This document shows, one piece after another, positions 57,750 to 63,874 of a DNA stretch of 64,000 nucleotides (position 1 is the first letter of the stretch; each line of letters begins with the position of its first letter). Location: NCBI RefSeq assembly GCF_963259705.1, contig NC_081841.1, forward strand, positions 88,487,063-88,551,062, in the 5' to 3' direction. A program made the translations under genes and the position numbers. Source of the stretch: Myotis daubentonii. Lineage: Eukaryota; Chordata; Mammalia; Chiroptera; Vespertilionidae. The notes under the pieces are model-generated. The model saw only the letters and a list, made by a program, of their open reading frames with translations. It made no database searches and was not told the origin of the DNA.

Positions 57750-59300
57750 TCATTCATCAGAGTCCAAGTCACTGTCCCCAGCAATCGAGTGGAAATCCTC
57801 ACTGTCCTCCTCGTCCTCTGACAGGTGGACCTGGCATAGCACGCTCGGCCCAGAGTGCTGCTCTTCCTCCTCATCTTCTTCCTCCTCATCTTCTTCCTCC
57901 TCTGATACCTCATACCCACCGATGCTGCTGAAGCTTGTGTCTTGGGTGTTCGACTTGGGGTCGGGCTCCTCATAGCTCCCATAACTGATGTTGCTATCCT
58001 CCAAACCATGAGAAGCCTCCCCACCGTCTCCCTCATAGGACATCATGCTTTCTTCATTTCCCACGCCCATCCTTGTGTTCTCCTGAAGCATGCGGGGCTG
58101 TTTGGGTATTATCCCACCGGATCCCACATCAGAGTCACTTCCATTTTCACTCAGTTGGATAGCAGAGAAAGGATTATCTCCTTCTTCGTCACTGCCAGCA
58201 TCTTCCTCATCATCTTCTCCTTCAGACATAAGCAAATCCTCATACGGGACACTGGCTTGAGGCTGTTACACGGTTCCTTCCTCTTCATCTGCAAGATCGC
58301 CATCTGCATCTTCACCTTCCTGTGTCACCTGCTTTTCTGGAGTGGTAGTGGGAATATCCAGGACAGACATATTGCTCTCATCTTGAAATACAGAGGCATC
58401 TCGAGACATACTGAGGGATTTGTTGGTATCATATAAATCAGGTGGCTGAGGTGCGTAAGGCCCTGGGGTCATTGGGTCCAAACCGTCTAATTCTGCTTCT
58501 TCCAAAGCTGCTTCTTTAGATGTACAAATATCCTTCTCAAGTTGAGTCAAATGTTCGTTATACTCAGTCAATGTCTGGCAACAGACGTTCACAATCTCCT
58601 GAGCAGTCTTAGTATACTGACTTTCAGGCCCGTTGTACTTAACACTGTTAGCAAGGATAAGGTTGTCATCATCTGGGAAGCTCTTTCGACTCTGATACTT
58701 GTGCTTGGAGATATTCTTCCGTATAGTCTTTAAATCCATTGGACTGACAATCACTTCATAATCATCTGGAACAAAATTCTTATTAACTGGGTGATGAAAT
58801 GGCCAAGAATCTGGAACTGCTATCATTTTCTGGGTGACAATATTATCCAGAATAAAAGAAAATGTCACTGGGTCATCATCATCCAACAAGGGATTGATAG
58901 CTTTCTCTAAACGAGCCAATTTGTCTTCTTTCTCTTTCAGTTTTTCATCACAGAGCTCCAGCATGGATTGAGAGACCTGGGTCAATGAGTGTTTTGGCCT
59001 GTAGGTTGTGCTACTTTTCACAATGAGCTCCAAATGCTCTCTGAGCTCTTCCCGAGATGGGTAGAGGCGTTTACGCACATTTTCACGAAGTGTCTGTAAG
59101 TCCATTGGTCAAGTAATAATTTTGTAGTAGTCCTTTACAACCTTCCCATTGACTGGAGTGTGGAAAGGGTAAGTATTTGGAAGATCTCTCAGGTCGTTGA
59201 TGATAGACTCCAAGATAGATGACAGTGTCACCATGGGGTCTGTCTGGCGCCGGTGGATGGTCTTATGAGGTCTATTCAAATAGTCACAGTGGGAGTGGTT
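57750..59300 (-). pseudogene. Broken TAF1 C-terminal part: two bromodomains and acidic tail
   Basis: After the frameshift the TAF1 frame continues as [15 protein letters not shown]. Bromodomain 1 (to about 58,960) is interrupted by TGA just before [10 protein letters not shown]. It has also lost one codon where TYNGPKHS became TYRPKHS, removing the acetyl-lysine-binding Asn. Bromodomain 2 (about 58,880-58,560) is open and keeps its Asn (VKYNGPES), but PDYYKVI reads PDDYEVI. A TAA follows at ADEEEGTV. The acidic tail to DSDLDSDE is then open, with a DEEEE-type repeat at about 57,860-57,905. In intact TAF1 the tandem bromodomains bind acetylated histone H4. Here they would not be translated from the upstream start. 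Confidence 0.9.
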
Positions 59301-62300
59301 ACAACTCGCCATTTCTTCTTAGGGGGGAGTTGCTGTTTAGGGAACTTGAGAACTAGAGACTTTCTGCGAACCTCATCTGCACTCTCAATTAGCTGTTTCC
59401 CCAAAACAATCTTGGTCCCTTCAACCTTGATAAGTTCTTCACTATCATTATGAATGACTGTCTTTTCCAACTCCTCTTCCTGTTCCTCTGTCATGGCAAC
59501 AGGATTGGAAGGTGGAGCACTTGTTTGATAATAGAGGGGGCAGCATTTGTTTGTCCTCATGTGCCCAATGGCTCCACAAGCCCCACATTTCAGTTTTAGG
59601 TCAGGACGCTCCTTCAACTTTTTTGGCTTTTTCTCAGGAGGACCCTTAAGCTTCTCCTTTTCCCGGTTCCGCCTAAGCCGCCTCAGCTGCTCTTGAATCC
59701 TCCGCCGTTCTTTTCGCATCTTTTCTCGACGCTGTTCATCAAAAAGGGCGAATTTTCGAATGAACTCCTCATCTTTTGTAGTCCGTATGCGCACATAGGC
59801 ATCTATGACAGCTGGCTTTCGGACCGTCTCACAGCGAACATATTCTTTTCCCTCTTCATCTCGAAATGTGCGATAAATCTTGAGACAACGGCCAGTGGCA
59901 GAAGAGTTCAGGCTAGTCACAGAAGCTGTATCATCATCTCTGTGATTGTTTCCTGCTGCTGCCGAACCTGCTGCCAGTAGCATCCTCTGTAGTTCCTTCC
60001 GCTCCTGCTCCTCCCGTTCTCGTGACAGCTGAGGGCTGGTTTTCTTATTCTGCAACATGTCCTCTATAGCCTTCCCCATTTCTTCAAAGTCACTGTCTTC
60101 AGCTGAGCTGCTATCTGTATCAGTTGATAAGACTTCAGTTGATGACAAAACCTTGTTTTGTAGGTCAAAGATGCGTTGACATTCCTCTTTGTAACGTTCT
60201 TGATGCTCAGCCACAGAAAACCTTGATCCACGGGCAAATTTACTCATTGACCCTTCCCCAGAGTGGGCCTGTTCTGTTGACATTGTGCGCACCACATCAA
60301 TCACTTCCCAGCGGGACAACTTTTTCATCTCTTCCTCAGGCACGCCAAATTTACATAGAAGTTGCTTGGCATTTTTCAAAGAGAGGCGACGGAGGTCTGC
60401 ATCTGTTCCTGTCACTGTTTTCTTCACTGGCTGAGGCTCTTTATCATCCTTCTGTTGCGTTGGTTTGTTTGGAATCTTCACATAGGAAAATCCTTCACCA
60501 CACCCTGTGGGATCTGCCACCCCAGTCACCTCCAAGAGACACTTGCCCTTCATGGCAGCAATGAAGGCCCTTGTGGTGTTCCAAGGAGCAGTGCGAACCT
60601 CATCATCAGTCTTCATCTGGAAATCTTCCTCGTTTTCTTTTTCTGGAGCAAAAAAGGACTTCTCACCATAACCAGCATCCTTGAGTCGCTGCTCTGCAGC
60701 TCTCATACTGTAATAAGCACAGCACTGCTCTGGAGACACCATAGCTCTGATCTCCTCTTCAGTTGGTAAACGAAAATCAGACTTCAGCACCCACCAATTT
60801 GAGTCCATCCCTGTGCGTTTGAAGTCAGCACAGAGCTTTAGCCTCTTCCAGATGCTGCTTTCTGAATGACAGGGAAAGGCTGTTTTTATATCTTCCATTC
60901 GGATCCGCCGTGGCCGATCTGCACTCTTCCAGAAGAGGCGGTAAATAAAAACCTGGAGAAAATCTCGAATATGTGTATTGGCCCTTTTGGAGTTGGGCCC
61001 AGGAACTTCAAACAAGGGGCACTGCTGGCCAATCACAAAGATATCCACCAATTCCCGAATGTAGTAGCCTTGTCTTGTCCGAATGATAAGGAAATCAGTT
61101 TCTGGCATCTTATGAAGATAAATTGGGGCACGAAAGAGATTGTTCTCAAACGCCTGCAGCAACTGGCCAGGATGGAGAGAGCCCAGGAAAGGAGAGGTAT
61201 GGCAGTAAACAGTTTCTCCATATTTACAATCTGGGGCCCCAGGATCTTTTCCAGGTTTCCGCTTATAATAGTTTTTTATCTTGGTTGCCATGCCAACCTG
61301 CATCATTAATGGTCCATTTTCCTCACTGTATTCTGCTAGAATAAGATCTCCATCTTTGCCTGTGAGGTCCTGAGGTGTGCGCATAAAAAACATCTCTCCA
61401 CCACCTGAAGCTTGCCTCTCTTGTTGTCTCACCTTAGCCTTCTTTCTTATGTGCTTTAGCAAGGGTTGGACTGAGTGGGGACCTGGCTGAGACAATGCCC
61501 CAAAGGAGTACTTCTTCAGAGCTGGGCGATGGAATTGCCGGAGTTTGATGGGCCCCATATGGGTGGGAAAGAAGGGCTGCCGTAATTCCACAGCAGGAAT
61601 TGAGTGCTGGATGCTATTTCCTCCAAAAGTGCCATGAAGACCCTGTTGCTTGGGGTAGTAATATTCATCATTGGAGAGATTCCATGGATCTTTCACTTCT
61701 GGCTGAGACATGTTCTGCTGTAGTTCCTTCTTGGTGACTCCTGCTTTCCCTAAGAGAATTCGACTCTTCTTTAGAGATGATTCCTTTTTACTCTCCTTGG
61801 AGGGGGAGTTAGATGTGGCCTCTTCCGCCTCATCAGGAATTTCCAAAATGAGATTCTCGTCATTGGGATCCAGTGTCAAAACAGGAGGCTCCAACAGCCG
61901 GGGCATGGCCTGAGCATCCCAAATAATGTTGTCCTCCCAACGTCCATACACCAGTTCCTCATTGTCAATGGGAAAAATGGAGTACCAAGGCTTGTCATCA
62001 TCCAGGGTGGCTGCACAACCTTGCTGAACATTGTAAGCGATGGCATTTCTAATCGTGCTGGAAGGAAGCCAGCCTTCCAGGCTTGCACGCTGAGGTTTTG
62101 TCCCTTTGTGTTTGACATCCTCCCCATCCCAAATGATATCATCCTCCCAATGCAGTTGTGTCGCCATCAGGAAGTTTTCATCAGCCAGAAGAACCGTGCC
62201 ACTGCTTTCCTCAAATTTCCTAAAGTCCTCCATCATTCTACCTTTTATCACAGGTTCATGTCCCATCTTTCTCAGTTTGAAGCCATAGTCAAACCCACTG

Positions 62301-63790: not shown

Positions 63791-63874
63791 CTTCTTCCGC
63801 TTGTTTTCAGCGCCTGCGACAGCACCGCGGGCAGCACGCTGTTTTATAAAATCATTTAAAGCGGAGAGCATCAC
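63791..63874 (-). other. Probable SNW1 5'UTR, open in frame
   Basis: These bases precede the SNW1 ATG and remain open in the same frame. An ATG at 63,871-63,869 would add [16 protein letters not shown] and so on. They are probably SNW1 leader transcribed into the retrocopy. TTTTATAAAA at about 63,842-63,851 resembles a TATA box but may be fortuitous. Confidence 0.5.

Follow-up and report, generated by a model that had tools for sequence, protein, structure and literature searches.

The window analysed here is a stretch of 64,000 nucleotides from the genome of the bat Myotis daubentonii, and it carries on its minus strand a sequence in which the beginning of SNW1 runs into TAF1. SNW1 residues 1–109 are encoded at 63790–63464 (match to SNW1 in the PDB, E ~1e-64), and the TAF1 part, which matches residues 17–1382 of 30ff_DA with 2961 bits, follows in the same frame without introns. 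The initial annotation had read the locus as SNW1 1–109 followed by TAF1, RNA-derived, on one strand and in one frame, and both matches bear this out; the matches to the parental exons and to the PDB agree that 63464–63790 is SNW1. The SNW1 part, 5′UTR and codons 1–109 with the ATG at 63790, occupies 63831–63464 and ends 3 nt short of the parental exon end. As the break thus lies inside the exon, we rejected splicing at an SNW1 exon end.

The open frame extends from 63874 to 59276 and comprises 1532 codons, or 1504 when counted from the SNW1 ATG. The proposal that everything lies in one frame is correct for this stretch, including the TAF1 coding sequence at 63379–59279, but not for the remainder of TAF1 down to 57750. 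Indeed, a 1-nt deletion at 59293, upstream of the bromodomains, leaves the rest of the coding sequence (59278–57750) out of frame, and two nonsense codons, TGA at 59111–59109 and TAA at 58268–58266, lie past the frame end. Since the frame stops at 59276 after this deletion, the part encoding the bromodomains and the acidic tail is absent from it. A 1-nt insertion displayed by BLAST at 59384 was discounted, as it coincides with the border of a parental exon piece, where the protein alignment has no gap. The protein P0001 is one residue longer than the window copy at its position 137, and no such gap separates the window from L013, the TAF1-bearing ERV described below. Among the 120 best of 945 protein matches, the closest to the fused frame was Myotis myotis TAF1 (95%). 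No fusion of gag to SNW1 or of SNW1 to TAF1 appeared in known proteins among the 120 best of 945 and of 5020 matches (~8000 candidates scored each), nor did any protein listed there cover more than 90% of the query.

Nucleotide comparisons were made against the same genome (2.13 Gb), with contigs labelled C1, C3, C7 and C23. Parental TAF1 is spread in 41 aligned pieces, some of them parts of one exon, across ~79 kb of C23, and the exon pieces of parental SNW1 lie spaced apart on C1. Both parents are thus split genes, which confirms the absence of introns from the window copy. As they sit on different contigs, the fusion cannot be explained by normal splicing of one gene.

The two halves are joined by what had been described as 28 linker codons. 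They do connect SNW1 and TAF1 in frame, but their composition is retroviral: 63463–63412 corresponds to the end of U5 in a betaretrovirus-like endogenous LTR, from which 15 internal nt present in L011, L013 and L015 have been lost, and the remnant of a primer-binding site (PBS) follows at 63410–63401, at the LTR/TAF1 junction. The complete PBS, TGGCGCCCGAACAGGGAC, is found in L015 and L019. At least 29 of the 47 genome places listed match only 63464–63416 or a part of it, with 96–100% identity (40 of 1653 candidates scored). The TAF1 5′UTR begins only at about 63400, where the match to parental exon 1 starts and runs into TAF1, and this excluded the whole linker being TAF1 5′UTR. The idea that the 49-nt repeat was a spliced leader was dropped once the repeat proved to be LTR. 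At the SNW1/U5 junction the alignment leaves room for just 1–2 nt of microhomology.

SNW1 is also carried by ERVs elsewhere in the genome. At three loci, on C1, C7 and C23, an LTR and a gag fragment precede an intact SNW1 of 536 aa, which lies within gag as an L1-type processed copy. An A-rich tail stands ahead of the second copy of a 14-bp duplication, AAAACAGTGTGCTG, at all three; this duplication borders SNW1 on both sides and is exact in L014 and L016, while the first copy in L015 has a single changed base. In L014 and L016, SNW1 within gag thus shows both marks of an L1 processed pseudogene, the A-rich tail and a target duplication of 7–20 bp, and the gag of L013 presents the same site without the SNW1 interruption. 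The C1 element is complete, in the order LTR-PBS(Lys)-gag piece-SNW1-PPT-LTR, so that an intronless host sequence lies between two LTRs with their PBS and PPT, as in an ERV with a captured host mRNA. Its two LTRs show 4 mismatches over 509 positions, and it alone is bordered by a short target duplication of retroviral integration (6 bp, CATAAA). The C7 and C23 copies showed no 3′ LTR within the 8.6 and 8.1 kb examined. Downstream, these two are alike (~98%) over more than 6.5 kb in which no viral similarity was seen, but their 5′ flanks differ; because of the shared flank they may stem from a DNA duplication of a single locus. We therefore no longer count three retroviral insertions, as only that on C1 is shown to be retroviral. 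SNW1 in the window is 92–94% identical to the three ERV-borne copies. The copy numbers given here, whether of ERV-borne SNW1, of TAF1 or of the 104-nt segment discussed below, are lower bounds taken from the matches listed.

TAF1 is borne by an ERV of its own at C3:33.46 Mb (L013/L035), in the order LTR-PBS remnant-TAF1-gag-pro, with Pfam domains Gag_p24 (2.9e-40), RVP (4.8e-23) and a C-terminal piece of integrase (2.4e-6). It has its 5′ LTR, gag and pro, and a PPT-LTR lies 12 kb further on; its 5′ flank was seen, and the 3′ partner of a target duplication was not identified. The window and L013, ~95% identical in TAF1, share the LTR/PBS-TAF1 junction, the break in the TAF1 3′UTR and the next 104 nt. 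Besides the window, this is the one ERV-TAF1 locus with a 3′ end among the matches listed. The family is betaretrovirus-like (class II), as assigned from its PBS and gag matches: L015 has a lysine-tRNA PBS, and the best PDB matches of the betaretroviral gag are 8c9m, 6hwi, 2v4x and HERV-K capsids. Lysine PBS and dUTPase are given as group traits of betaretrovirus-like ERVs in PMC3621094.

Traces of the same family persist at the outer ends of the window copy. Upstream of SNW1, alignment with the gag of L013 and with L014 identifies a gag (capsid) remnant at 63857–63832, which includes, at 63845–63832 and with a single changed base, one copy of the 14-bp duplication flanking SNW1 in gag; the window thus retains the gag/SNW1 junction also present in L014. 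At the other end, the TAF1 3′UTR (57749–57342) is broken off within the parental 3′UTR, without poly-A, as seen against the parent and L013. It is followed by the 104-nt segment (57341–57238), for which L013 was the only sharer among the loci compared and no further matching place appeared among the matches listed (40 of 696 candidates scored). This segment is probably gag, judging from its position in the gag frame of L013, where the PDB match starts at residue 73, inside the segment. Next comes, on the plus strand and antisense to the chimera, the 5′ part (5′UTR and ORF1 start) of a repeated element (55971–57237), which we take to be L1/HAL1-like. No SNW1 match is found behind TAF1, which leaves an SNW1 pseudogene later split by TAF1 unsupported. 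The opposite flank, 64000–63860, is CpG-rich and extends beyond the window end (CpG o/e 0.81–0.82, GC 0.62–0.72 in 200-base intervals at 63801 and 63901); it had no match at E up to 1 among the loci compared. Neither poly-A after TAF1 nor a target duplication around the chimera was seen by eye or in one repeat scan; the marks of an L1 processed pseudogene are thus missing around a copy whose TAF1 stops inside its 3′UTR and continues into the shared segment and then L1. Moreover, in the window and L009 no LTR of the family stands at either end, and the only BLAST match to U5, of 46 nt, is internal, so the window copy is a derivative and not a provirus.

Because both halves share their junctions with separate ERV-SNW1 and ERV-TAF1 loci, we favor, with a probability of about 0.85, the reading that one betaretrovirus-like ERV family took up transcripts of two unrelated host genes by two routes and that the two products were joined later. 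The first step is visible in the genome: an L1-type processed copy of SNW1 mRNA lies inside an ERV gag, and an ERV of this kind, on C1 at the least, was inserted as a retrovirus, LTR to LTR. A TAF1 mRNA fragment reaching from the 5′UTR to the middle of the 3′UTR, without poly-A, would have been set between PBS and gag; its junctions are visible, and template switching during retroviral reverse transcription would be the simplest mechanism. Recombination between ERV-SNW1 and ERV-TAF1 would then have joined SNW1 codon 109 to the U5 of the LTR preceding TAF1, leaving SNW1, U5/PBS and TAF1 in one frame by chance; the probable mechanism is a jump during reverse transcription from one RNA to another, the two being co-packaged or in tandem. 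The fragment would finally have settled beside the L1 fragment, to decay as a pseudogene.

The initial annotation had instead proposed a single insertion during which L1 reverse transcriptase passed from the mRNA of parental TAF1 to that of parental SNW1. The lack of introns, the common strand and the break of SNW1 within an exon would suit such a jump, which nevertheless leaves unexplained the U5/PBS between the halves, the LTR/PBS junction and 3′UTR break in common with the C3 ERV-TAF1, the gag piece ahead of SNW1 with a junction in common with three ERV-SNW1 loci, and the fact that no poly-A was seen after TAF1. Contradicted by junctions that both halves share with separate ERV-borne copies, this origin is barely credible. 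The SNW1/U5 join may nonetheless go back to a template switch, between sequences already carrying retroviral parts. An assembly artefact joining unrelated pieces is scarcely more plausible: repeated LTRs, L1 and retrocopies can mislead assemblers, but the junction is internal to a contig of 222 Mb, and SNW1 is 92–94% identical to the ERV-SNW1 copies, TAF1 ~95% to L013 and mostly 92–99% to the parental exon pieces. No copy compared is identical to either half, and neither half is therefore a simple collapsed copy. A DNA event, in which an ERV-SNW1/ERV-TAF1 tandem around a shared LTR lost the stretch between SNW1 codon 109 and U5 by genomic deletion, is a possibility that we hold tentatively. 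Tandems of this type do exist, since at C3:33.454 Mb and at L011 an LTR and TAF1 lie directly behind a provirus end (PPT-LTR-TAF1), and the C7 and C23 loci suggest DNA-level duplication within the family. Nevertheless, no ERV-SNW1/ERV-TAF1 tandem was present among the loci compared, and what borders the window copy on its outer sides does not correspond to a simple provirus.

Is the fused frame a functional gene, or was it one for a long time, with selection maintaining its product of 1504 aa, an SNW1 N-terminus on a TAF1 without bromodomains? No stop occurs in the 1179 N-terminal codons compared, despite 66 window-only codon changes (~2.9 expected, P ~0.055), and no frame-shifting indel precedes 59293. 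The window-only changes, 43 nonsynonymous to 23 synonymous, stand at 0.65 of the neutral expectation, and the flank upstream is CpG-rich. But the ratio differs neither from neutrality (P 0.09) nor from the 66:26 of L013 (P 0.39), the contrast in stops and frameshifts (0 in the window against 6 in L013) has P 0.08, and a frameshift and two stops lie downstream. Moreover, a long frame is the very reason why the site was noticed, which biases its selection. Judged from substitutions alone, the changes look near-neutral and the chimera is probably a dead relic; a working gene appears unlikely.

TAF1L, a primate TAF1 retrogene, is an intact, intronless autosomal copy of X-linked TAF1. The likeness to it drawn earlier stands as far as an intronless TAF1 copy is concerned, but the window copy is ERV-borne, fused and frameshifted at 59293, with stops at 59111 and 58268, and is no intact, full-length TAF1L-like gene. 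In retroviruses of the Rous sarcoma virus type, which transduce oncogenes, a cellular sequence lies within the provirus and viral genes are lost; the same holds here, but the bat case is germline, has non-oncogene passengers and is known from genome sequence alone. To our knowledge, host-gene capture by mammalian ERVs has seldom been seen with its steps preserved. We found no report of an SNW1-TAF1 fusion, or of SNW1 or TAF1 in an ERV, among the papers listed in searches of the open-access literature.

Crocodilian ERVs have captured the host genes KIT-ligand and nectin3 (PMC4299795), likewise with host mRNA inside a multi-copy ERV lineage. The bat case, by comparison, concerns a mammal and two genes that a single ERV family acquired in different ways, SNW1 as an L1-type copy within gag and TAF1 at the PBS, with a later chimera of both. 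The maize retroelement Bs1 contains pieces of three cellular genes, according to a review (PMC5408686), and the title of a paper cited there names a hybrid ORF. As here, one LTR element family holds more than one host gene; Bs1 differs in being a plant element, whereas in the bat two ERV-borne genes are joined through an LTR remnant. The same review presents L1-linked copying as dominant in mammals and describes LTR-mediated retroposition (Tan et al. 2016), in which the template switches between an LTR element and an mRNA. The TAF1 capture would fit this mechanism, whereas SNW1 took the L1 route first.

In this genome, both capture routes, an L1 copy into gag and an mRNA at the PBS, and the later recombination of the passengers can be read from junctions. 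Fusion retrogenes therefore need to be checked for LTR linkers. On a bold and improbable view, the ERV family would be a natural gene-transducing vector for the nuclear regulators SNW1 and TAF1. It would have carried an intact SNW1 frame, at least once, to a new site where an LTR controls it, and recombination between its passengers would have made a bromodomain-less SNW1-TAF1 protein, expressed and under constraint during some of its past. The locus offers a testable natural case of retroviral shuffling of coding sequences, and of the rise and fate of a chance in-frame fusion.

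The reading of SNW1 residues 1-109, a linker and TAF1 in one frame is borne out by a minus-strand ORF (63874-59276; 1532 codons without a stop), in which the SNW1 residues are encoded from 63790 and are followed by 28 codons, mostly matching neither gene, and by a TAF1 part beginning at [10 protein letters not shown]. The single frame does not extend to 57750, as the initial annotation had proposed: TAF1 coding homology reaches this point, beyond the ORF end at 59276, in another frame and, relative to the parental gene, with a 1-nt deletion at 59293 and, 3' of it, a TGA at 59111 and a TAA at 58268. 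The ORF retains the TBP-binding piece, the DUF3591 core and the zinc knuckle, and has lost the TAF1 bromodomains.

In the readable part of the genome (G000; 2.13 Gb, 121 contigs), searches for the parental genes placed TAF1 in 41 aligned pieces from C23:89022043 to C23:89101270 and SNW1 exon pieces at C1:19.67 Mb. The window SNW1 ends in ..AAAGAC, 3 nt short of the parental exon end (AAAGACAAG followed by gt); lying within the exon, the join is thus not at a splice site. The 28 linker codons are in frame as described, and LTR matches show them to be mostly viral, namely an LTR end (U5) and a remnant of the primer-binding site (PBS). All or part of 63464-63416 is the sole match of 29 of the 47 listed places, at 96-100% identity (40 of 1653 candidates scored), and five further entries are weaker second matches to this stretch. 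Nine of the 29 were compared and two inspected in sequence: at L019 the stretch is the end of an LTR, directly before a lysine-type PBS (TGGCGCCCGAACAGGGAC), and L018 has the same LTR. In the window, U5 lacks 15 nt and is followed by the PBS remnant and the TAF1 5'UTR. An older SNW1 copy (84% identity) is found at C23:2.747 Mb (L005), where the window U5 stretch had no match.

Three endogenous-retrovirus loci (ERV-SNW1), on C23 (49.43 Mb, L014), C1 (200.38 Mb, L015) and C7 (88.75 Mb, L016), hold, in order, an LTR, a gag capsid piece and SNW1, and are 97-98% identical to one another. Their SNW1 copies the mRNA in full, ends in an A-rich tail and has on either side AAAACAGTGTGCTG (the first copy in L015 has one changed base), and the gag of an ERV-TAF1 on C3 (L013) carries this site uninterrupted; together these features indicate an L1-type insertion of SNW1 into gag. 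Since the window gag-SNW1 junction is the same as in L014, its SNW1 derives from this lineage. The C1 element is bounded by two LTRs differing at 4 of 509 positions, with CATAAA on both sides. No 3' LTR was found within 8.6 kb on C7 or 8.1 kb on C23, and the downstream DNA of these two agrees closely, at 97.9% across 4659 aligned columns and 98.1% across 2116 (about 98% over more than 6.5 kb between C7:88.740-88.7486 Mb, L027, and C23:49.419-49.4271 Mb, L031). As this DNA has no similarity, apart from apparent shared repeats, to the ERV pieces compared, and the 5' flanks are dissimilar, the C7 and C23 copies could represent a single truncated locus that was duplicated at the DNA level, so that retroviral insertion is evident for the C1 copy alone.

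The ERV-TAF1 (C3:33.4565-33.4665 Mb) is ordered 5' LTR, PBS remnant, TAF1 with its 3'UTR, and gag, its TAF1 carrying later insertions. The gag frame matches Gag_p24 (2.9e-40), Gag_p24_C, zinc knuckles and betaretroviral capsids (PDB), and beyond it lie pieces of a protease (RVP, 4.8e-23) and of an integrase tail (2.4e-6); 12 kb further on lies a polypurine tract (PPT) and LTR, again with about 430 nt of TAF1 behind. A locus at C8:44.99 Mb (L011) resembles this 3' end (PPT-LTR-TAF1 of about 430 nt, further sequence, A-rich tail), and looks as if L1 had copied a transcript reading through from it. The window diverges from the parental TAF1 3'UTR at 57342, and its next 104 nt are common to L013 (87.5% identity), where they sit in the gag frame, the PDB gag match starting within them. 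They had no match in the other loci compared or at any other place among the matches listed (40 of 696 candidates scored), so this stretch is likely rather than certain to be gag. Both TAF1 breaks of the window are thus shared with ERV-TAF1.

How were the two joined? At the junction, SNW1 codon 109 abuts the U5 of the LTR preceding TAF1. A reverse-transcription jump, from ERV-SNW1 RNA to ERV-TAF1 RNA or inside one tandem RNA, would make this join in one step. A genomic deletion within an ERV-SNW1/ERV-TAF1 tandem would give it as well, an alternative that we hold to be less likely but to which the existence of PPT-LTR-TAF1 tandems lends credit. An antisense L1/HAL1-like fragment adjoins the chimera from 57237 downwards. 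In the neighboring stretch L009 (own coordinates) are two short L1 elements (797-2738, minus; 6747-9083, plus) with 5'UTR and ORF1, apparently without ORF2, which we take to be HAL1-like. Just upstream of the chimera, a CpG-rich stretch (63801-64000 and L009:1-150; o/e 0.8-0.9), lies next to a sequence resembling an LTR with TATAAAAGG and may act as a promoter; its part at 63860-64000 gave no match among the loci compared (E up to 1).

Codon changes suggest that the TAF1 part evolves near-neutrally, with weak hints only of constraint. Across 1179 N-terminal codons compared among window, L013 and parent, nonsynonymous to synonymous changes number 43:23 in the window alone (no stops), 66:26 in L013 alone (one stop) and 7:22 shared, with five codons different in all three. 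Against a neutral opportunity of about 2.9:1, the window ratio is 0.65 (P 0.09), and does not differ from that of L013 (P 0.39). In a site chosen for its long frame, stops (0 vs 2.9 expected, P 0.055) and stops plus frameshifts (0 vs 6 in L013, P 0.08) are to be read accordingly. L013 has eight gaps relative to the window in this stretch, and the sole window gap faces a 231-base insertion of L013. The downstream 331 codons hold 12 nonsynonymous and 7 synonymous changes and 1 stop of the window's own; the parental comparison covers 5215 of 6038 positions, the sample being smaller for bases that were withheld or did not align. Relative to Myotis myotis TAF1, 65 of 1362 residues differ, and 53 differences are window-only among 1345 three-way codons.

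An open-access literature search showed no report of SNW1 or TAF1 in ERVs among the papers listed. Published work describes host-gene capture by crocodilian ERVs (PMC4299795), a maize element bearing several genes (PMC5408686) and a catalogue of bat betaretroviral ERVs with a lysine PBS (PMC3621094). The private changes of the three ERV-SNW1 frames sum to 24 nonsynonymous and 16 synonymous, too few to decide. The 536-aa SNW1 frame is intact in all three copies, and in L015 and L016 a single open frame of 632 aa, from a GTG, spans the gag piece together with SNW1; each of the three loci is itself a candidate SNW1 retrogene driven by an LTR.
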